Below, piece after piece: positions 1-12,344 of a stretch of 21,646 bases of DNA (the first letter of the stretch is position 1; each line of letters opens with the position of its first letter). The notes under the pieces are model-generated. The model was given only the letters and a program-made list of their open reading frames with translations, ran no database searches and was not told the DNA's origin. The stretch covers positions 1 to 21,646 of the IMG/VR virus record IMGVR_UViG_3300011258_000582. One strand, 5' to 3'. This stretch comes from a virus. The translations under genes were made by a program, and so were the position numbers.

Positions 1-1
1 A

Positions 2-112
2 CGTACGTTTGATACGTATCCGTCTGCTTATGCTAATATGGCTGCATCTAAGTATTGCAAGAATCCTAACTATGCAAAGAAGTCCAAAGGTGGTAAACGT
101 AAAGGAAAGTAA
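2..112 (+). CDS. C-terminal end of a small basic phage protein (partial)
   Basis: An open frame enters from the left edge and stops at the TAA at 110-112, giving 36 residues with no start in the window. The tail is rich in Lys, Tyr and Gly (TYPSAYANMAASKYCKNP, then KKSKGGKRKGK). Short lysine-rich ends of this type are common in small basic virion-associated proteins next to other such proteins in environmental phages. Its stop overlaps the next start (TAATG at 110-114), so the two genes are probably translationally coupled. The function is unknown. Its reality is supported by the clean codon pattern and the coupling. Confidence 0.65.
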   Translation, partial: RTFDTYPSAYANMAASKYCKNPNYAKKSKGGKRKGK

Positions 113-354
113 TGGCTCAACTAAAGCAATGGAGAGAGCAGAACTGGGTAAGGATCGGAACTGATGGATCTATCAAAGGACCTTGCGGAACGTCGAAGGA
201 TAAGAAGAACCCTGACCGTTGCCTCCCTAAAAGAAAGGCTCTCAGCCTCACGAAAGCGGAGAGAGCTAGCACAGCTAGAAAGAAAAAGAAAGCAGGAGCC
301 AGAGGAAAAACAGTCGTAGCAAATACACCTAAAGCAAAGGTAAGAACTAAATGA
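112..354 (+). CDS. Small basic protein, DUF5872-like
   Basis: This 80-aa, strongly basic protein has the core WVRIGTDGSIKGPCGTSKDK followed by KKNPDRCLPKRKALSLTKAE and an Arg/Lys tail. The arrangement W-x-x-I, GPCG(T/R), a Cys-Pro core and an SLTKAERA-type helix is what I recall of the DUF5872 family, found in phages and large DNA viruses. The biochemical role is not known; charge suggests nucleic-acid binding or packaging in the virion, which is inference. The start overlaps the preceding stop (TAATG). Its TGA stop at 352-354 overlaps an ATG at 351 (ATGA), which now opens only a seven-codon frame (see the repeat at 348-370). Confidence 0.7.
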   Translation: MAQLKQWREQNWVRIGTDGSIKGPCGTSKDKKNPDRCLPKRKALSLTKAERASTARKKKKAGARGKTVVANTPKAKVRTK

Positions 355-370
355 GTAAGGAACACAAAAG
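348..370 (+). repeat. Left copy of a 23-bp direct repeat (truncated gene start)
   Basis: The sequence TAAATGAGTAAGGAACACAA and the next three bases match 540-562 at 22 of 23 positions; the difference is T versus G in the second codon. In this copy the ATG at 351 opens a frame of only seven codons (MSKEHKS) before TAA at 372-374. In the right copy the same start continues as the 78-aa gene at 543. The left copy therefore looks like a duplicated, decapitated 5' end of that gene. Confidence 0.8.
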
Positions 371-376
371 TTAATA

Positions 377-535
377 ATGAATAATAAAAATATAAATAAC
401 AGAAAGTTAATTGAGGATTCTGATTTTTACATTAAGAAAAAACCTGGCTCAAAAAACTTAGACCCTGGTTTTTACGTAAAGAAAAAAAAGACTTCAAAGA
501 GCTTAGATTCTGGTTTTACTATAAAGCGCAAGTAA
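377..535 (+). CDS. 52-aa microprotein made of about 15-residue repeats
   Basis: An ATG at 377 opens a 52-codon frame ending in TAA at 533-535. After a short Asn-rich head the protein is nearly all repeat: DSDFYIKKKPGSKN, then LDPGFYVKKKKTSKS, then LDSGFTIKRK, a unit of [LE]D-[SP]-[DG]-F-[YT]-[IV]-K-[KR]-K. The frame is preserved through three units while the bases vary, which argues for selection on the protein. It is AT-rich and lysine-rich, unlike the GC-richer gene that follows. It lies exactly between two copies of the start of the DUF6321-like gene (348-370 and 540-562). I do not recognise a family. Its basic character matches its neighbours, so a virion role is a guess. Confidence 0.6.
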   Translation: MNNKNINNRKLIEDSDFYIKKKPGSKNLDPGFYVKKKKTSKSLDSGFTIKRK

Positions 536-539
536 AAAG

Positions 540-562
540 TAAATGAGGAAGGAACACAAAAG
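540..562 (+). repeat. Right copy of the 23-bp direct repeat
   Basis: This copy contains the intact start (ATG at 543) of the 78-aa gene. It matches 348-370 at 22 of 23 positions. The spacing between copies is 192 bp and corresponds to the microprotein unit. Confidence 0.8.
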
Positions 563-779
563 CAAAAAGGGCGGACTAACTGCCGCCGGCCGTGCCTACT
601 TCAAGCGCAAGACGGGTGCTAACCTCAAGGCTCCGGTCACGGAATCCAAGCCCAAGGGCAAGAAGCTAGCTCGAAAGAAATCATTTTGTGCCAGAATGTC
701 TGGCGTTAAGGGTCCAATGAAGGACGACAAGGGAAGACCAACACGGAAGGCTCTAGCCTTGAAGCGTTGGAAATGTTAA
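543..779 (+). CDS. Small basic protein, DUF6321-like
   Basis: This is a 78-aa, Lys/Arg-rich protein. It shows KKGGLTAAGRAYFKRKTGAN, then LKAPV, then KKSFCARMSGVKGPM and a C-terminal ALKRWKC. The order KGGL-x-x-x-GR-x-(Y/F)-(F/Y), LKAPVTE, SFC-x-R-M-x-G and a terminal (R/K)WKC is the pattern I associate with DUF6321, found in phages and giant viruses. Function is undetermined. Its position directly upstream of the tail or connector gene, with six bases between, suggests co-expression with late genes. The start codon lies in the right copy of a duplicated 23-bp sequence. Confidence 0.7.
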   Translation: MRKEHKSKKGGLTAAGRAYFKRKTGANLKAPVTESKPKGKKLARKKSFCARMSGVKGPMKDDKGRPTRKALALKRWKC

Positions 780-785
780 AAATTA

Positions 786-3212
786 ATGCAAGAATACAGG
801 TCCTACGCTAACTTAGATGATCGCATCCTCAATGACGGGGATGTAGGTTTTGTTGGGTTCAACAATCGGCTTAGACCTGATCAGCTACAGGGGGGCATGC
901 TAGCTGACTCCCAGAACATTCGACTGGATCGTAACGGCGAAGCACAGGTAAGAAAGGGCATCGAGGTTATTGAAGCTCCGTTTGGTGTAGGAGGCGATGT
1001 ACTTCGACTACCTACCTCAGCGGAAATTGGCAATGGAAGCACGACGATGCTTCCGACTACTATTGAATCAGCAACTCTTGTTGGTGCTGACAACCAGGCT
1101 AATCTTATAATCAATGACCCCGCCGTAGAAGCAGGGCATACATTTGCAGCGGACGATGTTGTTACCGTAGAAGGACTAGGACCTAGCGGCTCATCTTTTA
1201 CGGTTGACCCTAATGGACTCAAAACTCTAGTTTCTGTTACCGATAACGGGGATACTAGGACACTCAAATACGCTCTATCGGGTAGTAATGAAACCTATAC
1301 TACCCCAATAGTACTACCGCAACAATTATCATTCACCCTGAATACTAATACCACGCAGGCTGTTATTGGTTTCAAGATGATACTTGACCAAGGGCAAGTT
1401 ACTGAAGTCTACGCAAGTTCGGCATTCAGTGACCCCAATGATAATGCTAGTCAGTACATCCTCATTGCATCTAACTTGAAAGTTGTTGCTAAGAATTTGC
1501 TGACTGATGCTACCGTAGAGATTGCTTATCCATTAAACGAAACGATACCTCCGCAATCATCAATGCTTCAGACCTTTAACAAGGTGTTTATATTTCGTAA
1601 AGGTCAAGTAGCTCTTGAGTGGGATGGTTCCTTTAGTGCGGTAACAGCAGGAAGTTTTGTGGTAGGTAGAACCTATACAATCACGGCTGTTGGAAATACG
1701 GACTTTCAAGCTATCGGTGCTTCGGCAGATACTATAGGTGTCACTTTTACGGCTACGGGTGTTGGGTCCGGAACTGGCACAGCCACATCTGCCTTTTCTA
1801 AAGTTGCAAGCGGAACCTATACTCAACCAGCTATATTAGATATTTCTGGATTTGTTATTACCAATGGACTCGCCACAGCAACCGTAAGCAATACTCTGTC
1901 TCCGGGTGACAAGGTTATCCTTGTAACCGCTGGTGCAAGTACGCTAACCGAAGGCAATCAATTTACTGTTTCTGAAGCTACTGCATCAGCCTTTAAGTTC
2001 TTTGTGGATTCAGCGGATGTATCCAATAAGACAAATGTTGAGTTCACTCAAAAAGTTTCCGTAGGTCTAGGGTTCACACATATGCCTGCCCCGGAGTTTG
2101 CCGTATATCATCAACGCAGGTTGGTTATGCCGTTTCAATTCTCTGTGGATGCAAGTGTTAATTCGTACACATCGAGGGGGATTCTGGATGAGGTTATTGC
2201 TTCAGATATTCTGGATAGCGATACATATGACCAAATCTTTGCTCAGTACAGATTCAATGCAGGTGAGGCTGACTTCACGGTAGGGCTGCACTCATTCTCC
2301 GAGGATAATTTGATGGTGTTCAATCGTAACAGCATTCACTTAATATCTAACACAACTTCGTTGCAATCAGCTAGCACTAAACTATTGACCGATGAAGTGG
2401 GCTGCGTAGCGCGACAAACTATTACACAGGTTGGTAATCAAGTTATATTCCTTTCCGACAATGGTGTTTACAGCACTCAATTCTTTGATGAGTACAACCT
2501 TCGTGGAACCGAAACTCCTTTAAGTGAGCCAATTAACGAAACAATCAAAAGAATTAATAGGGATCAACGGACTCAAGCTGTTTCTGTTTACTTCGACAAT
2601 CGTTACTTTATTGCTGTGCCATTGGATGATGCCCTTCGCAACAACGCTATACTTATTTATAACTTCCTAAATAAACAATGGGAGAGTATTGATAGCGTTA
2701 ATAGCGATGACTGGGACATTGAAAATCTCATTGTTTCGGGTGAAGGAAGCCAGCGGGGTGTTTATGCAATTAACCGATTAGGAGGCATACATAAGCTTGA
2801 CGCTAGGCTACAGGGTGATGACTTAATTAATGTAAGCACCGGAGGCTCTAATGAAACTAAGAATGTCAAAGGCAGTATTACTACTCGTCAATATACATTC
2901 GGTGATATGACCAGGAAGAATTGGAAAGAATTTCAGATGCACGTAGAGAGTAGTGCGGATAATGCTAGCAACTTTGACCTATTAGCGGAGACAGAGAACC
3001 CTGATGGTAACTTTACATTAGGAACCTTAAGCAGCTTTAATGATGGAGTTAATTTACCTAAGGCGGAGGATGTGTCCATACGTGGTAGAATAGGTAACCG
3101 CAGAGGACACGGGATTCAATTTACAGTAAACAATACACAAGGACGGCCAAGAATTAGGTCACTTCAAACTCAAGGATCAACCTCCTTTAGATCAACACAG
3201 AAAGCAGAATAA
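786..3212 (+). CDS. Tail or head-tail connector-like structural protein, 808 aa
   Basis: The N-terminus has the logic of phage tail or stabilisation proteins: a list-like LADSQNIRLDRNGEAQVRKG segment (about residues 38-58), as in tail tubular and P22 gp10-type proteins. The body is rich in beta strands, Asn, Thr and Ser. Residues about 400-640 contain RRLVMPFQF, NLMVFNRNSIHLIS and VIFLSDNGVYS, alternating strands that could form a beta-propeller. Residues about 288-338 contain a GSFVVGRTYTITAVGNTDF motif followed by AIGAS and a GSGTGTAT end. This is a motif seen as a movable insert in many marine phage tail proteins, and it interrupts an otherwise continuous strand-rich region. The last codon overlaps the next start by one base. 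A structural role is likely; the exact part is uncertain. Confidence 0.6.
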   Translation: MQEYRSYANLDDRILNDGDVGFVGFNNRLRPDQLQGGMLADSQNIRLDRNGEAQVRKGIEVIEAPFGVGGDVLRLPTSAEIGNGSTTMLPTTIESATLVGADNQANLIINDPAVEAGHTFAADDVVTVEGLGPSGSSFTVDPNGLKTLVSVTDNGDTRTLKYALSGSNETYTTPIVLPQQLSFTLNTNTTQAVIGFKMILDQGQVTEVYASSAFSDPNDNASQYILIASNLKVVAKNLLTDATVEIAYPLNETIPPQSSMLQTFNKVFIFRKGQVALEWDGSFSAVTAGSFVVGRTYTITAVGNTDFQAIGASADTIGVTFTATGVGSGTGTATSAFSKVASGTYTQPAILDISGFVITNGLATATVSNTLSPGDKVILVTAGASTLTEGNQFTVSEATASAFKFFVDSADVSNKTNVEFTQKVSVGLGFTHMPAPEFAVYHQRRLVMPFQFSVDASVNSYTSRGILDEVIASDILDSDTYDQIFAQYRFNAGEADFTVGLHSFSEDNLMVFNRNSIHLISNTTSLQSASTKLLTDEVGCVARQTITQVGNQVIFLSDNGVYSTQFFDEYNLRGTETPLSEPINETIKRINRDQRTQAVSVYFDNRYFIAVPLDDALRNNAILIYNFLNKQWESIDSVNSDDWDIENLIVSGEGSQRGVYAINRLGGIHKLDARLQGDDLINVSTGGSNETKNVKGSITTRQYTFGDMTRKNWKEFQMHVESSADNASNFDLLAETENPDGNFTLGTLSSFNDGVNLPKAEDVSIRGRIGNRRGHGIQFTVNNTQGRPRIRSLQTQGSTSFRSTQKAE

Positions 3213-3928
3213 TGGCATCACCTATAGTAAAAGGAAACAATTTTGGGGCTACCGATACAGTCACTAACACAACACTTAATAACATTGTTGATAACGCAGC
3301 GTTTAAAGATTTTGACGGAAGTACTGAAGCATTCAACGTAAGTGGTTCAACCGATATAGGAACCTGTGCATTGGCTGGAGGACTTGGAGTTAAGACTACC
3401 ACGGGACAGTTACAGCTCAAAAGCCAGGCTAACCTAACCGCCCTCGGAAATGTATCGGGTGGTGCTGCTGTTCCTACTGCCGTAGCTATCCTTGATGAGG
3501 ACAATATGTCTTCTAACTCAGCTACTTCATTAGCAACTCAGCAAAGCATCAAGAAATATGTTGACGATAATAGTTCAGTGTTAAGCGCTAGCACGGCTAC
3601 AGGAACGATAACCACTACTGGCGCAAATACTTTTCAGGACTTCGATCTTTCTGCGGTTGTTGGATCAAACAAGGCTATGGTCATCATGGAGGTATTCGAC
3701 GGAAACCAGAATGGTAGGACTATATTTTTTAGAACGAAGGGGTCATCCGTCTCGCCCTATGGTGCTTCTGTTCAAGGCGGTTCAAATACAGCTCTTTTAG
3801 GAACTGCTGACAACGGCAACACCGTTATTGTAACAACCGATTCATCGGGATTCCTTGAAGTTCTTACAGGGGCGGTTGCTATAAGTGACGTAAAGTATGC
3901 AGTCCAAGCCTTTCAAGTAATCTCTTAA
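3212..3928 (+). CDS. Short tail-fibre-like protein, 238 aa
   Basis: The protein is rich in Ser, Thr, Asn, Gly and Ala, with repeated short strands, as in fibre proteins. Residues about 100-120 carry MSSNSATSLATQQSIKKYVD, a variant of the S-x-T-x-(L/V)-ATQxSI(K/A)xYVD motif common in phage tail fibres and shared with the next gene. The half after it is a compact beta-rich domain (VMEVFDGNQNGRTIFFRTKG). It may be a receptor-binding or particle-decorating tip; this is inference. The start overlaps the preceding stop by one base, so it is likely coupled to the 808-aa gene. Confidence 0.55.
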   Translation: MASPIVKGNNFGATDTVTNTTLNNIVDNAAFKDFDGSTEAFNVSGSTDIGTCALAGGLGVKTTTGQLQLKSQANLTALGNVSGGAAVPTAVAILDEDNMSSNSATSLATQQSIKKYVDDNSSVLSASTATGTITTTGANTFQDFDLSAVVGSNKAMVIMEVFDGNQNGRTIFFRTKGSSVSPYGASVQGGSNTALLGTADNGNTVIVTTDSSGFLEVLTGAVAISDVKYAVQAFQVIS

Positions 3929-3940
3929 ACATTTAATAAT

Positions 3941-4492
3941 ATGTCCATTTTAACAACAGGAAAAACATTTGCTAATGGCGAACAGCTGTCTGCTAGCAAA
4001 CTTAATCAAGTAATTACCGGGGCGACTTTTGATGCGTCAGGTGCTGTTGATGGTAGCAGCATAACACTTATTGGGGGAGCTATGGCTGTAAATGACGGAG
4101 GCGTAACCTTTGCAAAACTAACAGACGTTATTGACAGCGATACAATGACTGGAGCAAGTGCAACCAAACTAGCTACATCTGAAAGCATTAAGGCTTATGT
4201 GGACAGTAGTCCTAATTTTACTCCGAGTACATATGATAGTGAAGAGAGCGTAACTTTTCCTAATGGTCTAATAATGAAGTTTGGCACAGTAACGGTTTCG
4301 GCTAATACTACCACTGCCGTAAACTTTGGAGCAGCTTTTAATGCTACCGTTAGCGCGCAACTTACTATACAAGAAAACAACACTACCGACAGGGAGAGTA
4401 TAAAAATTGAATCCTTAACTAATTCAACCTTAACCATACGTGAAACTGATTCTTTTGCTGGAACAGTACATTGGCAAGTAATTGGTAGATAA
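3941..4492 (+). CDS. Short tail-fibre-like protein, 183 aa, related to the gene before
   Basis: The protein starts with SILTTGKTFANGEQLSASKL, an N-terminus typical of fibre or spike proteins that attach to a baseplate or tail. Residues about 65-90 contain MTGASATKLATSESIKAYVD, the same motif as in the gene upstream (SATSLATQQSIKKYVD). The two therefore share at least this module, though the C-terminal domains differ. The C-terminus (FNATVSAQLTIQENNTTDRE onward) looks like a beta sandwich. Leader: an AT-rich TTTAATAAT stretch, no Shine-Dalgarno. Its last codon overlaps the next start by one base. Confidence 0.55.
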   Translation: MSILTTGKTFANGEQLSASKLNQVITGATFDASGAVDGSSITLIGGAMAVNDGGVTFAKLTDVIDSDTMTGASATKLATSESIKAYVDSSPNFTPSTYDSEESVTFPNGLIMKFGTVTVSANTTTAVNFGAAFNATVSAQLTIQENNTTDRESIKIESLTNSTLTIRETDSFAGTVHWQVIGR

Positions 4493-4974
4493 TGAACCCC
4501 CTCTTGCAATCAGTTCAACTAGCATTGCAAAATGCTGAACAGAAAGAAGCCATTGCGTTTATAGATAAGGTCGTGGATTTCTGTATTGAACACGAGAACG
4601 GGAAAGTATTGGGCAAGTGGTCTAAGGGTATGATTCGGCTCCTTGTAGCCTATCATATGGCCAAGGATACTTGCATTGTAGAGAAGGACGAAGAGGGCAA
4701 TATCACAGGTTTAGGTATGTGGTATAATTGTAACGAGGACGACGACGAGTCGTTTATTGAAAACTGGATTGCGGATGACCCCGACGGAAACGCAATATTT
4801 ATGGCCTTCTTATTTTCAAATACTACCAAAACTTTTAAACAACTTACACATAACTTTATTAATAAATGCCCTGGTGTAATGCAAAAAAAATTACTAGGAA
4901 TACGGCGCAGGAAGGGTTCTGCCGTTAGGGTGGAATACTCACCTAAAGTTTTTAAAAAAATACTAACAATATAA
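4492..4974 (+). CDS. Unrecognised 160-aa protein downstream of the fibre genes
   Basis: I cannot assign a family with confidence. The protein has an N-terminal amphipathic helical part (LLQSVQLALQNAEQKEAIAF), a central segment GLGMWYNCNEDDDESFIENW with a strongly acidic patch, and a hydrophobic IFMAFLFSN strand. A basic C-terminal part follows (KKLLGIRRRKGSAVRVEYSP). Small acyl- or acetyltransferase-like proteins are often found beside marine phage fibre genes and have a comparable strand order, but I see no diagnostic acetyl-CoA loop, so this is only a weak idea. Overlap of one base with the previous gene and four bases to the next place it in the same transcript. Confidence 0.6.
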   Translation: MNPLLQSVQLALQNAEQKEAIAFIDKVVDFCIEHENGKVLGKWSKGMIRLLVAYHMAKDTCIVEKDEEGNITGLGMWYNCNEDDDESFIENWIADDPDGNAIFMAFLFSNTTKTFKQLTHNFINKCPGVMQKKLLGIRRRKGSAVRVEYSPKVFKKILTI

Positions 4975-4978
4975 CATT

Positions 4979-6760
4979 ATGGGTTCATCAAAATCACCAA
5001 AACAGCCAGCACCTATTGACCCAGGTGAGTCAATGGGCGAATACTTGTTCGGCAAGGACTTCAGTAAGTCGTATCAGGGAATTACGGACCCTAGACTTCA
5101 AGATAGATTGATTGCCGCCGAGTCAACGTATCGTCCGCAATACGCTGGGCTAGAGCTTCAGGACATTAATACATTTGCTCGTGGTCTCGAAGAAAGGGCT
5201 AACCCTGAGTACGCACGAATCCAGACAGAGATTGCTGGGTTAAAGGCGGGGCAGGAGTATGAAAGTCTTTCAGCGAAGGAGCGCAATAAGGCACTTAAAG
5301 CACAGGCTGATATTCTTTTCCCCGATAAAGCGAGAAGTGGGAGTCGGAATAGATTTAACGACTACAGTTTTAATAAACAGCAAAGTATTAAACGAGAAGA
5401 GTTTATTAAGCAAGGAAAAATTGGAATCGGTGACCGAGCTGCAAAGATTGCCGAACTAGAAACACGTCTAGAAGGTACGCCCGAAACGCTTGAAGCTCAA
5501 GGAGGGCTATTCGATTTATTGGAAGAGCAGTCACGCCGTGCGGGTGACTTGCAACGTGAGCAACTAGGGTTGCAACGTGAGTCCGACGTAGCTGCATTAG
5601 AGGAGTTCTCACCTCAAGTAGTGCAGGCTTACCGTGACGCTGACCCCTTTAGCACAGCTTTGGCTGAGGAGGCTTCCGCTAGGGCAATGGACTCAAGCCT
5701 AAGGGATAGAGGCCAGGGTCTTATGAGTTCTGCGTTGCGAGAAGCTAGTGAATCCGAAAGTGCATTGCAATCCAGTGGCATGGCTAACGTAAACGCAATG
5801 CGTGAAGCCGCTAGTGCAGCAGAAAGTGCATTAAATCAGAGCGGATTGTCCAACATAAACGCAAAGCGTGAAGCTGCAAGCGCAGCAGAGCAACAACTTA
5901 ACAAGGTTGGTATGTCTCTATCTGACCTATCTCCGACCGAACAAGAGGCTATATTGTCTGGACGTGGAATGGAGTTCGCTGCATCCACTGGAGAACTTAC
6001 TGCCCTCGAAAAGCGCAGAGCGCAGCAGTCCTCACGGGAAGCTTCTGTTGCTCGTGGACGGGGAATGGATCAAAGTGCTGTGTATGGAGAGATGGAGGCT
6101 CGTATGGCCGAGGAGCTAAACAAGCAGGAGCGTGAGATTGCTCTGGGTGCAAGTTTATTAGGTCAACAGGCTGATATGCGTTTAAATAGATTAAACGCAG
6201 GCGCAGGTATTCTCACTCAAGCTGAAGCTATGGATGCTCAACGCAGAGCAGAGCAGTTACAGCGCCAGAAATTTGGTGCTAGCTCACTTACTCAAGCCGA
6301 AGCTATGAATGCCCAACGTAGGGCAGAACAACTCCAGCGTCAGCAATTTGGTTCTGATCAATTACGTGCCTCAGAATCTATGCTAGCGCAAAGAAGGGCT
6401 GAAGAGTTACAACGCCTACAGCTAGGCGCAGGTTTAATGGGACAGGCTGATCAGCAATTGCAAGGAGCTTTTGGTATGAACCGCAATCTAGCGGGTGACA
6501 TAGGTATGACTATCTTAGGTCGGCCTTCGTCTTCTATTAATCTTGGTAGTCAAACACTATCATCGGCACAGCAGGGTGCGGCAGGTCAAATGGGACCTCA
6601 ACTATTCGACGCTAACGTAGGTTACAATGCGGCATTGCAACAGCGAGGACAGGACGTTACGTTCCAGGGTATGAAGGCTCAGGCTGATGCAGCTAGTAGT
6701 GCTGGATTTATGGGTGGAGTTGGTAGTGCCTTGGGTGGATTTTTAGGAAGACCAGGTTAA
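4979..6760 (+). CDS. Helical repeat protein, probable internal virion (ejection) protein, 593 aa
   Basis: The protein is almost entirely helical, very rich in Ala, Gln, Glu, Arg and Ser, with a glycine-rich end (GFMGGVGSALGGFLGRPG). Two internal repeat sets are visible. One, at residues about 245-310, has three units of MREAASAAESALNQSGLSNI type. The other, at about 408-487, has three to four units of QAEAMDAQRRAEQLQRQKFG type, a regular Ala/Gln/Arg coiled coil. Long Ala/Gln coiled coils ahead of a giant protein with hydrophobic segments are typical of podovirus internal proteins injected with the DNA. That role is inferred from composition and gene order; no enzyme motif is seen. Confidence 0.5.
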   Translation: MGSSKSPKQPAPIDPGESMGEYLFGKDFSKSYQGITDPRLQDRLIAAESTYRPQYAGLELQDINTFARGLEERANPEYARIQTEIAGLKAGQEYESLSAKERNKALKAQADILFPDKARSGSRNRFNDYSFNKQQSIKREEFIKQGKIGIGDRAAKIAELETRLEGTPETLEAQGGLFDLLEEQSRRAGDLQREQLGLQRESDVAALEEFSPQVVQAYRDADPFSTALAEEASARAMDSSLRDRGQGLMSSALREASESESALQSSGMANVNAMREAASAAESALNQSGLSNINAKREAASAAEQQLNKVGMSLSDLSPTEQEAILSGRGMEFAASTGELTALEKRRAQQSSREASVARGRGMDQSAVYGEMEARMAEELNKQEREIALGASLLGQQADMRLNRLNAGAGILTQAEAMDAQRRAEQLQRQKFGASSLTQAEAMNAQRRAEQLQRQQFGSDQLRASESMLAQRRAEELQRLQLGAGLMGQADQQLQGAFGMNRNLAGDIGMTILGRPSSSINLGSQTLSSAQQGAAGQMGPQLFDANVGYNAALQQRGQDVTFQGMKAQADAASSAGFMGGVGSALGGFLGRPG

Positions 6761-7532: not shown

Positions 7533-10500
7533 ATGCCTACTTCTACCTTCAGAGATCCAGGAACAGGAAGAACTTTTAGTTTTAAGCACGATAAAGGTCT
7601 TACCCCTGATCAGCTACAGGCACTTGCTAACGAAAAAAAATTTGAGGGTCTAAATAGGGAGGGCAATATTGTCACCCGTAACCTAGCCATAGGCGTTGAT
7701 ACGATTCAACAAAATGTTTTTGGATCAGCCCTAGAAGGTATTGGTAAAAGCTTTGACCTTAAGACTCTCGAGGAAATAGGTGCTAACATTGTAGAGGAGC
7801 AAAAAGGTCAGAAAGAAGATCGACTTAGATTTGCCCCTAAGTCAGAAGGCTTTGTTCCATACGTCACGGAAATGGCTGCTCAATCCGCTCCTATCAGTGC
7901 GGTTGGTCTAGCTGGTGCAGCGGCTGGCGCAAAGGCTGGTGCTGTCATTGGTGCTGGGTTTGGCGGAGCAGGAGCAGCCCCTGGTGCTGTCATTGGGGGA
8001 ATTGTAGGGGGTGTTGGCGCGATGATACCCTTCTTCTACGGAGGAAACAGAGAGCGTCAGAAGGAAGCTATTGAGCGTGGCTATCGTACTGAGGTGGACG
8101 AAGGAGCCGCCCTATTGACTGCTATCCCACAAGCCGCACTGGACTCTATTTTAAATTTGTTTGTTGTTTCCAAGGTTGGTAGGGCATTTGTCCCAGCAGC
8201 CATTCAAAAGGGTGGAGGTATATTTACTCGAGTCGCTAAAGGAACTACAACAGGTGTGCTTACTGAGACTCCTACTGAGCTAGGGCAACAAGTCCTTGAG
8301 CGTTATCAGGCCGGGCTTCCTATGAACACGCCAGAAGCCATTGAGGAATACAAAGCTGCCGCCGCTGGTGGTGCTATTCTTGGTGGTATCCTAGGTGGTG
8401 GTTCTGCTTCTATCTCCAGAAGTACTAATGTTGAAACGGATGTTGAAGAGGATCCGGATAAGACCGAAGAGGAAAAAGAGAGAGAAGATCAAGAGAGGGT
8501 CGGTCAACTTGATGAAGAGATTGGCGGAGGAGAAGAACAGATTTTTAAGGTTGAGTACACTGACCCAGATACCAATGAAAAATTAGTAACCCAGGTAGCA
8601 GCTACTAGCTTTGAAGAAGCCCGTGGATTAGTTGCGGAAGGCACTGGTGCTAATCCTAATACGATAGCACTTGCTCCGGAGATTACCCCAGAGCCAGAGC
8701 CTGCCCCCGAACCTGCCCCCGAACCTGCCCCTACCCCTGAAGAAGAACCTGCTCCTGAACCTGCTCCTGAACCTGCTCCTGATCCTGAGCCAGATTCTAT
8801 CCCAGAAGAAGAACCTGCTCCAGAGCCTGACCCCATCCCTGAGCCAGAACCTACCCCTGATCCTGCTCCAGAACCAGAGCCAGAAGAAGAGCCTGCCCCA
8901 GAGCCAGATCCGATTACCGTAATCGTGCCTGACCCTATTCCAGAGCCAAAGCCTAAGCCCAAACCAGTTCCAAAAGAGTTTAGGCAACAAGTTAAGGACG
9001 CACTCAAGCTAGAAGGAGCTAAAAGCTTTCTGAGAGTTGACCCAGTAACTAGGCAACCGATTTCTGATAAAGATGCTCTTGAAAATAGTCTTCGTGCGGG
9101 AACACCAATCGGTGATGCCGCAACAGATAAAGAGGTTAATGAAAACTTTGATGACCTGCAATTATTCAATGCTATAACTGCGGGACTAAGAAGCGATGTG
9201 GTAAGAAACCCGTCAGCAACTATACGACAAAGGGCAAAACAATTTAATGCTGCAAAAAAGTTACGCAGTAGATTAAAAAGAAAAAGGAAAGAAGAGCAAT
9301 ATGTTCCCACGGATTTAGATAAAGAACTTGAAGCCATTGCTCCTCGAGGAGAAATCATAGAAACCCGTGAACAAGTTAAGGCTATCATTGATAGGTTCCG
9401 ACCCATTGCTAAAAAACTTGGTTTTGATGTAGTCAACAACTCTAGTATCAGAGGCGCGCATTACAACCCCAACAAAAATGTGGTCGAAGTAAATATTACG
9501 GCAATGTTTGATCGGATTACCCAGCAGGGTGAGCGAATGACCGGACGGGGATCTAACTACATTGAATCCGTGATGCGTGAGGAAATAATTCATGGCGCAA
9601 TGGATCAAGTCCTTATCAAAAGAGGTGAATCCAAGGGTGCTTACAACTGGTATAAAAAACTGGGACAATCCCTAAGCAAAGCTCAACGAAACGCACTCAA
9701 TGACAATTATGTAATTCTTGATAGTTATAAGAAGAGGGATGAGGACTTCGGCTACGGTGCGGAATACGCACGGTCAGTAGTCCAGCAGCTTCTTTATGGA
9801 AATGATACTCAATCCTTTACTCAACCAGGCAGTGCTTTGGAGAAGGTTAAGTCCCTCATTAAGTCAGCCCAAGCATATATCACTAAGGCTCTAAAAACTT
9901 TAGCTCCTAAAAACCTAGAGGCCGCTGCTATTATCGCAGAAACCGCTGACCTTGTACGCAAGGCTGACCCTTCTGCTAGGCTGACTAACCAAAAAGATGT
10001 AGCATTATCTGAGTTCCTGTTAAGGCAGGAGAGGGTTAATGAGGTAGAAGGAAAGAAGATTGAGGCAGAAGGAAAGAAGATTGAGGAAGAGGTCGATGAG
10101 TTTTTTGAGGAAGACCCTGAATCCACGTTCCCACAAGCAAGCGCAGCACCTACACCTGTGTCCGCTGAGACAGTTGCGGAATCAGACAAACCACCGAGTC
10201 AGCGTAAGGGCAAGGAGGAGATAACTACAGTTGATAGGTATCTAAAAACCATTAGTTCATTGCTTCGTACTATGCACCCTCGACTAGCCTTGTTAGTTGA
10301 TAAGTACTACAATGACATTGACTCAAAGGTTCTCGGTTACATGACCAAGACAAAGCCCTTCTTTGAGAAAATAAATAAGATCAAGAATAAGAAGGATAGG
10401 AAACGCTTGACTCAGCTTATCTACTACAGCCGTAGCCTTGAGAGGGATCCAAAGCAAGGCGAACTAAGAATCAAGGAGCGTGATCTTCTGTTAAGGAAAT

Positions 10501-12344
10501 ACGGAATGTATAATGACTTCCACCTTCGGGTGAGAGTTACTCTTAATAAGGTACGCACGGAACTTGTGAATGCTGGATACGAACCAGGCAACCTTGACGA
10601 TTATTTCCCTCGTAAAATTCTGGATCTCAAAAAGGTAAAGGAATACTTTGGTGACACTGTCAAAAAGCCCTTTAGTAAATTTATTACTGAACTGAACTTC
10701 GTTACTAATGCCCGTCAACTTGTTGTCGCAGCCAGAAAGGGCAGCGGAAAAGAACCGTTTAGCGCGGCCGAGCTAGCGGTTGAGGTTGAAAAGAAATTAA
10801 GGGCGATGAGTCTATCCCTTGAAAAGCCAGAGATGGCTTTGGATTTTGATACCGTCAAAAAACTTTTACCCCTTGACCAAGGAGTGATTCTTAAACTTGG
10901 GGACAAGAAGACTCTAGAGATTGAGTCCATGTTGTTTGATCAATTCATGCGCCGAGGTCTTTATACTAATTACAGTAAAGGTCTTAGTAACTTAAAGAGG
11001 AGAAGCATTGACATCATACCTCCTGAATTGATGGATGCCTATGCCTCACCTGGTGAAGCGTTTGAGTCCTATGTCTATGGTGCTACTCAGGCAATAGAAA
11101 CTAGTAGGCTCATAGGCCGTAGGTTCATTCTTGATGGCGGGGGTGACAAAGCCGAAAGAGCAAGTGAACTTGCACGAGAACTCCGAGAGCTAGAGAACAG
11201 CGGAGCTATTACCCCGGAGGACACTGAGACTGCTTATGATGTTTTCCGCGTCATCCTTACTCCGCAAGGTAAGGAATCAAAGTTCTTCTCAGGACTTAGA
11301 GCGGCTAGTTACTTTACTTTGCTAGTGGAGTTCACCTCCACACTATCGCAAGTATTTGATATGCCATTCATCATGGCTCGAGCAGGTATTGATAATACCT
11401 TCAAGGCATTGATCTCCCAAAAACTTGGAGTTGATTTACTTGGCATTGATTCAAAGCGTGTATCCGAGGAGTTCCGTGATCCGTTGTTCATGGACAAGGC
11501 TGTTCGCTTGGGTCTAAAGGTTACTGGATTCACTCGCATGGATCAGTTCATGAAGGAGACTAACATCACGGCTAACTTTATGCGCTTCAGAAAGATAGCG
11601 AAAGCCGCAGCCAACACTCCCAATGGACGTAGGTTCCGGGCGGAGATGGAGTTCATGGGATTCAATGATGTGGAAATCATAAAGCTAAAGGCTGCACTCC
11701 AGAAGGGTGATAGTAATAACGCATTGGTAAGACTCGCACTCTTCTCAAGATTGTCTGAGACACAACCAACCTCCAAGGCTCGTATGCCACTCAAGCAGGC
11801 CGAGAATCCAGATACTAGATTGTTGTACACAATGAAGTCCTTCTTGGTGAATCAATTAAATCTTACTAATGATTTATATATTCAGCAGATGAAAAATGGA
11901 ACTCGTCAGCAGAAAGCTGAAGCATTTCTTAATCTTAGTAAGTTGATAGTATTCATGGCAATGGTTGGTATGCCCGTGGATATGCTAAAGGATTTAATCG
12001 CGGGACGCTTGGGTTACCTCCCGGACTACGCAGTTAATAATAGCCTTCGTATCTTTGGTATCTCTAAATATTCTGCTTACAAAATCAAACGAGATGGAGT
12101 AGGAGCCTTTGCTCTTAACTACTTCCAACCAGTTGCCTTGCAACAATTCGTTGACATAACAAAGTCCGTGCAACAACTAGCTGAGGGAACTCCCGTTGAG
12201 AGGACTAAGCTAATGACCCTTGCTCCTATGTCCGATGTCCTTAACAGAATCTTTGGGTTCACGAAGCAGAAGGAACAAAGAGAATTCAAGCGCAGGATTA
12301 AAAAGGGAGAGCGTCCATTCTTGATTCCTCCTGGAGCCTTATAG
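7533..12344 (+). CDS. Giant internal virion protein, 1603 aa
   Basis: Order of regions: an N-terminal domain ([20 protein letters not shown]); a Gly/Ala-rich hydrophobic stretch at about 113-170 ([20 protein letters not shown]), able to enter a membrane; and a second at about 274-290. A Pro-Glu stalk follows at about 383-475. Next comes a globular domain at about 570-760 with a degenerate zincin-like EEIIHG (residues 683-688), where HExxH would have His first. Then a Lys/Glu linker holds a duplicated EGKKIEA unit. The last 700 residues, mostly helical, have hydrophobic segments near 1251-1276 and 1465-1489. Size, helicity and membrane-like segments match podovirus ejection proteins and the large polyvalent proteins of environmental phages. 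The role in genome delivery is inferred. It ends the rightward block. Confidence 0.6.
8680..8980 (+). repeat. Pro-Glu hexamer/dodecamer repeat inside the 1603-aa gene
   Basis: The region is built from units such as CCTGCTCCTGAA and CCAGAGCCTGAC and encodes about 95 residues of (A/E)PEP, EEPAPEP and DPIPEP type. Pro-Glu stalks are stiff and extended, and probably separate the N-terminal membrane-like part from the globular domain. Slippage in such repeats gives length variation between relatives. The same repeat creates long false frames on both strands. Confidence 0.85.
10044..10085 (+). repeat. 21-bp tandem duplication in the 1603-aa gene
   Basis: Two adjacent 21-bp copies (10044-10064 and 10065-10085) differ at one base and encode EGKKIEA and EGKKIEE in a charged linker. 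It is in frame. Confidence 0.8.

Follow-up and report, generated by a model that had tools for sequence, protein, structure and literature searches.

Gain of a small lysine-rich reading frame, flanked by a duplicated gene junction, between two tightly packed phage genes

How does a phage genome whose neighbouring genes overlap by a few nucleotides come to carry an additional reading frame between two of them, and what becomes of the neighbours? The question is raised by a marine phage, represented by a 21,646-base virus record from IMG/VR (hereafter the window, meaning the whole stretch of DNA that was analysed), in which a lysine-rich frame, mid52, lies between an 80-aa basic gene, up80, and a 78-aa DUF6321 gene, dn78 (Table 1). 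The gene that follows encodes an 808-aa protein that is 36% identical, over the full length, to the 'head closure' protein of Phage C75C1, and its relationship to P22-type head closure proteins indicates that the locus belongs to the head-tail module of a tailed phage. Several larger phage protein families (phrog_10346, phrog_3477, phrog_28131 and others) resemble the DUF6321 protein at their C-terminal end, so that it occurs both alone and as a terminal domain. Farther along the window, an in-frame 75-nt repeat (TQAEAM.AQRRAEQLQRQ.FG; 6215-6352) is found in a 593-aa protein (4979-6760) that has no PHROG match, and a long proline-glutamate repeat region (8300-9000) lies within a 1603-aa protein (7533-12344) with weak similarity to the virion structural protein family phrog_6958.

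Table 1. Features of the locus, in window coordinates.
Feature	Position	Strand	Remarks
up80, 80-aa basic gene	112..354	+	Intact; phrog_23735; relatives up to 97% protein identity
Left junction copy	330..370	+	Matches the single junction of relatives; 3' end of up80 and start of the DUF6321 gene
Stub frame, MSKEHKS-stop	351..374	+	Truncated start of the DUF6321 gene; TAA at 372-374, 2 nt before the next ATG
Insert core	371..521	+	151 bp, about 26% GC; no counterpart in relatives
mid52, lysine-rich 52-aa frame	377..535	+	15-residue tandem repeat; from translation; no homologue
In-frame 45-nt tandem units of mid52	416-460, 461-505, partial 506-532	+	DSDFYIKKKPGSKNL / DPGFYVKKKKTSKSL / DSGFTIKRK
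Right junction copy	522..562	+	Continuous with the intact DUF6321 gene
dn78, 78-aa DUF6321 gene	543..779	+	Intact; Pfam PF19846, E 2.1e-28
808-aa protein gene	786..3212	+	Relative of the P22-type head closure protein Hc3; phrog_578, E 1.7e-9

The initial annotation of the sequence had pointed to a 23-bp repeat containing the start of the 78-aa gene, present in two copies 192 bp apart (348-370 and 540-562, 22 of 23 positions identical). This repeat is confirmed, and it proves to be the core of a longer one: the two junction copies form ungapped 41-bp direct repeats at the same spacing, with 35 of 41 positions identical (85%), which reach into the 3' end of up80 as well, each copy comprising the final 21 nt of that gene and the initial 20 nt of dn78. 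The top repeat score in window positions 1-1500 was 23, against at most 14 in 200 dinucleotide shuffles. Each neighbour finds in the duplicated segment exactly what it needs, up80 its end and dn78 its start. In the left copy the ATG at 351 overlaps the stop codon of the 80-aa gene (352-354), and the DUF6321 reading is cut after seven codons, with the 52-codon frame filling the space that follows, as had also been described; no other start truncated to MSKEHKS-stop was found in the viral contigs searched.

Related loci were collected from IMG/VR by searches with the 78-aa, 80-aa and 808-aa proteins, and the comparison that had been proposed at the outset, a search for empty sites with a single copy of the repeat, was answered. 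In 26 distinct relatives, counted as different sequences in which both small genes have at least 85% protein identity, there is one junction copy and no insert, the 80-aa and DUF6321 genes either overlapping by 4 nt (ATGA) or abutting (TAATGA); the loci L084 and L027 likewise show an empty site with a single repeat copy. The nearest relative, L165, has no insert; its DNA is 95.4% identical to the window in up80, 94.5% in dn78 and 95.7% over the initial 300 nt of the 808-aa gene. In the relative G024 (locus L126), one 40-bp stretch (4681-4720) aligns to both window 331-370 and window 523-562, and none of the fetched loci gave a DNA alignment over window 371-521. Since the relatives have an uninterrupted single junction, the window shows a net gain of 192 bp by insertion, a derived state that is private to this record among the sequences searched. 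The suggestion that an insertion had duplicated its target and left the downstream gene intact is supported by these empty sites, and the upstream gene is intact as well.

The inserted DNA differs from its surroundings in base composition, with about 26% GC over 371-535 compared with about 45-50% in the flanks, and 24-30% in 100-base windows over the insert compared with 40-58% around it. The core encodes most of mid52, whose predicted product has a pI of 10.2 and contains about 2.6 units of a 45-nt (15-codon) tandem repeat, the first two of which are 71% identical; the differences between these two full units, counted by eye, are spread evenly over the three codon positions (4, 4 and 5). A frame of this length arose in 20 of 2000 shuffles of the core when three frames were considered (1%) and in 103 of 2000 over six (5%), and the open frame is thus moderately unusual in relation to chance. 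The final codons and stop of mid52 (AAG CGC AAG TAA) are supplied by the up80 remnant of the right repeat in a different reading frame, and an original gene of greater length, if there was one, must therefore have been cut at the join. No homologue of mid52 was detected in viral contigs, whether by protein, by a repeat profile of the rearranged units or by two degenerate DNA patterns, nor in GTDB prokaryote genomes or 32 related records; searches of phage records and plasmids gave none of significance (tblastn to E 10), and there was no family match at the Pfam or PHROGs cut-offs. The product is predicted from the frame to be a basic repeat peptide of recent origin, which is more likely to be dispensable than functional.

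Taken as a whole, the locus is best read as the outcome of a single event in which foreign DNA was gained where two closely packed phage genes meet, a reading to which we give a probability of roughly two in three. In the ancestral state, up80 and the DUF6321 gene would have overlapped by 4 nt or abutted, as they do in the relatives; an AT-rich fragment of about 150 bp would then have been joined between them by illegitimate recombination, probably during recombination of two related phage genomes, and the joint would have left a junction segment on either side, made up of the final 21 nt of up80 and the initial 20 nt of the DUF6321 gene. With a segment on each side, both old genes would remain complete and the insert would inherit a ready-made translation start region. 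The two junction copies differ in a way that bears on this mechanism: at sites 339, 344 and 347, the left copy has the junction allele of L084 and L106, and the right copy that of L167 and L177 (GTAAAAAGTAA). Because the copies resemble different natural alleles, they point to illegitimate recombination between phage genomes and not to transposition, and such recombination appears to be the simpler reading of the allele pattern; if both copies came from one target, one of them would have been exchanged later or changed in parallel. The three sites lie in an A-rich stretch, and the pattern could also reflect later exchange or parallel change of this kind. Sites in the left flank form a mixture of L165-like and L084-like states, the last change falling between 332 and 339, which no more than hints at a clean mosaic break between left and right. 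The right join may have been guided by the short motif TAAAG, which the repeat units have in common with the 3' end of up80, although five bases prove little.

Gene gain at this position is tolerated, as is apparent from two relatives that carry other genes at the same up80/DUF6321 junction: L089 has a 199-aa gene (phrog_18251; 1006-1605), and L105 has two neighbouring paralogues (phrog_18771; 3234-3808), the second frame of which overlaps the DUF6321 start. None of the other insertions, between up80 and dn78 or between dn78 and the 808-aa gene, has a comparable doubled junction (best scores 6-12, compared with 23 in the window), so the doubling belongs to one event and is not a rule of the site; an insert with a doubled junction was encountered once (n = 1) in the data searched. 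The remaining direct repeats of related loci almost all represent in-frame repeats within proteins or pairs of paralogues. The locus L120 was considered as a second doubled gene start and rejected, being a tandem gene duplication instead; its tandem paralogues (3248-4823 and 4825-5070) are preceded by the 80-aa gene and followed by a different gene, small, basic and cysteine-containing (MADKKKMKCNVPRR...), that occupies the place of the DUF6321 gene. In L088, L090, L101, L117 and L148, too, a replacement gene of similar type comes after the 80-aa gene. A variable basic low-complexity gene, often starting MRKE.FRRGTAAYRLAKAQGRLPSQ, is present between the DUF6321 and 808-aa genes in at least ten relatives (L165, L167, L003, L006, L041, L183, L186, L188, L189 and L191) and absent from the window.

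Several other origins can be envisaged. A ready-made small gene might have come from a third phage by crossing over at the shared junction, an unequal exchange having doubled the junction and the newcomer encoding a working peptide. The different alleles on the left and right agree with such a history, as do the 15-residue repeat kept in frame and the exchange of small genes seen here in L089, L105 and, after dn78, in at least ten relatives; however, no donor was found in the collections searched, the frame shows no sign of selection, and its end is an up80 remnant, so that the original gene, if there was one, was cut. We regard this origin as doubtful. A tandem duplication of the junction region, the inner part of which diverged into the 52-aa frame, would on its own yield two junction copies, and tandem gene duplications are known in related phages (the two neighbouring paralogues of L120). 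It leads one to expect copies of up80 and the DUF6321 gene between the repeats, but in its similarity to up80, dn78 and the 808-aa gene the core (371-521) does not exceed shuffles and its GC content is only half as high, and as the flanks are still 95% like L165 there has been no time for a tandem duplicate to decay completely. Of the previously suggested tandem duplication followed by replacement, the version by decay is not supported by the sequence, the core being unlike both neighbours, whereas outright replacement is indistinguishable from insertion; divergence of a duplicate is, in our view, quite improbable.

The initial annotation had further described the unit as a minimal and possibly mobile protein-coding cassette, that is, a transposable or homing-like unit that would have duplicated 41 bp of its target on insertion. 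Such a unit would leave clean empty sites and long direct repeats at its edges, as are seen here, and in general form the locus resembles the insertion of restriction-modification genes with long target duplications as it is outlined in PMC1643837 and PMC3031569. Mobility is nonetheless not supported. The 192-bp unit, sought at other loci as had been recommended, is absent elsewhere in the window's own record and in 31 related records, and was not recovered in protein or pattern searches of viral contigs, phage records, plasmids or prokaryote genomes; its content is the 52-aa frame, with no recombinase, transposase, nuclease or terminal inverted repeats, and no inverted repeats of at least 14 nt occur in window 1-1500. 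No Rfam match was obtained in the window, and the fold of the unit is not unusual (z-score 0.07). Moreover, what has been duplicated is the gene junction itself, no such repeat accompanies the two other insertions at this place, and the two copies match different natural alleles, which together make a mobile cassette very improbable. An assembly chimera has to be weighed because the structure is unique and comes from a single metagenome contig, namely the record itself; it is extremely unlikely, since the core matches nothing in any collection searched, the joins share few bases with the flanks while misjoins by an assembler normally need a long shared word, and the flanking old genes are whole and, on both sides, contiguous with the same phage lineage (that of L165). 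Just as far from probable is a more general proposal, in which very small coding cassettes without a transposase would spread among phages by recombination at overlapping junctions, the duplication of the junction giving the newcomer a start region and sparing both neighbours. The one-off gain of foreign DNA remains the preferred reading.

The new arrangement would be translated by termination-reinitiation coupling. Ribosomes would enter at the old DUF6321 start (351), read the seven codons of the stub and stop at 372-374; they would restart at 377, two nucleotides beyond the stub stop and aided by the AAGGA of the stub, stop again at 533-535, and restart at 543 to make the DUF6321 protein. 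Coupling of this type needs short overlaps or very short distances, and reinitiation in other gene pairs is established to depend strongly on such close spacing (PMC10666635). The stop-start distances in the window are a 4-nt overlap (351-354), 2 nt (374 to 377) and 7 nt (535 to 543), the last of which exceeds the usual overlap. The best anti-Shine-Dalgarno pairing is -5.3 kcal/mol for the start at 377, where it is the AAGGA of the stub that pairs, -3.9 for that at 351 and -0.2 for that at 543; given the poor pairing at 543, the DUF6321 start probably depends on ribosomes that finish mid52 7 nt before it. A simple consensus scan of the insert revealed no promoter-like or terminator-like site on the + strand above chance.

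The locus offers a clear snapshot of a compact phage genome that gains a frame between two overlapping genes and breaks neither. As the duplicated piece is a translation start region, the newcomer would likely have been translated at once. On a small scale, the birth or capture of an orphan gene can also be tested here; as a single case that does not recur, the locus is a good example and not a new system.

Known systems share some of these features. As in phage mosaicism and where small genes have been acquired between others by illegitimate recombination (morons in the broad sense), an extra small gene of differing base composition separates two genes that lie side by side in relatives. A classical moron brings its own promoter and terminator; the insert has neither in recognisable form on the + strand, and its expression is predicted to depend on the neighbours. 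It also differs from the insertions found at the same place in L089 and L105 in that the junction is duplicated. The ATGA overlap between up80 and the old start, and the 2-nt gap between stop and restart, are like those of genes coupled by termination-reinitiation (PMC6728339, PMC10666635), whereas here the putative coupling element is a seven-codon remnant made by the insertion itself. In bacterial chromosomes, restriction-modification genes have been described as inserting with long target duplications (Nobusato et al. 2000, as cited in PMC1643837 and PMC3031569). As far as these citing accounts describe it, the resemblance lies in foreign DNA that is flanked by long direct target repeats, at a position where relatives have no insert, and the differences in the phage setting, the 151-bp core, the orphan 52-aa frame and the two copies that match different alleles. 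The window appears to hold a further case of a known event, insertion with target duplication, in an unusually tidy form.
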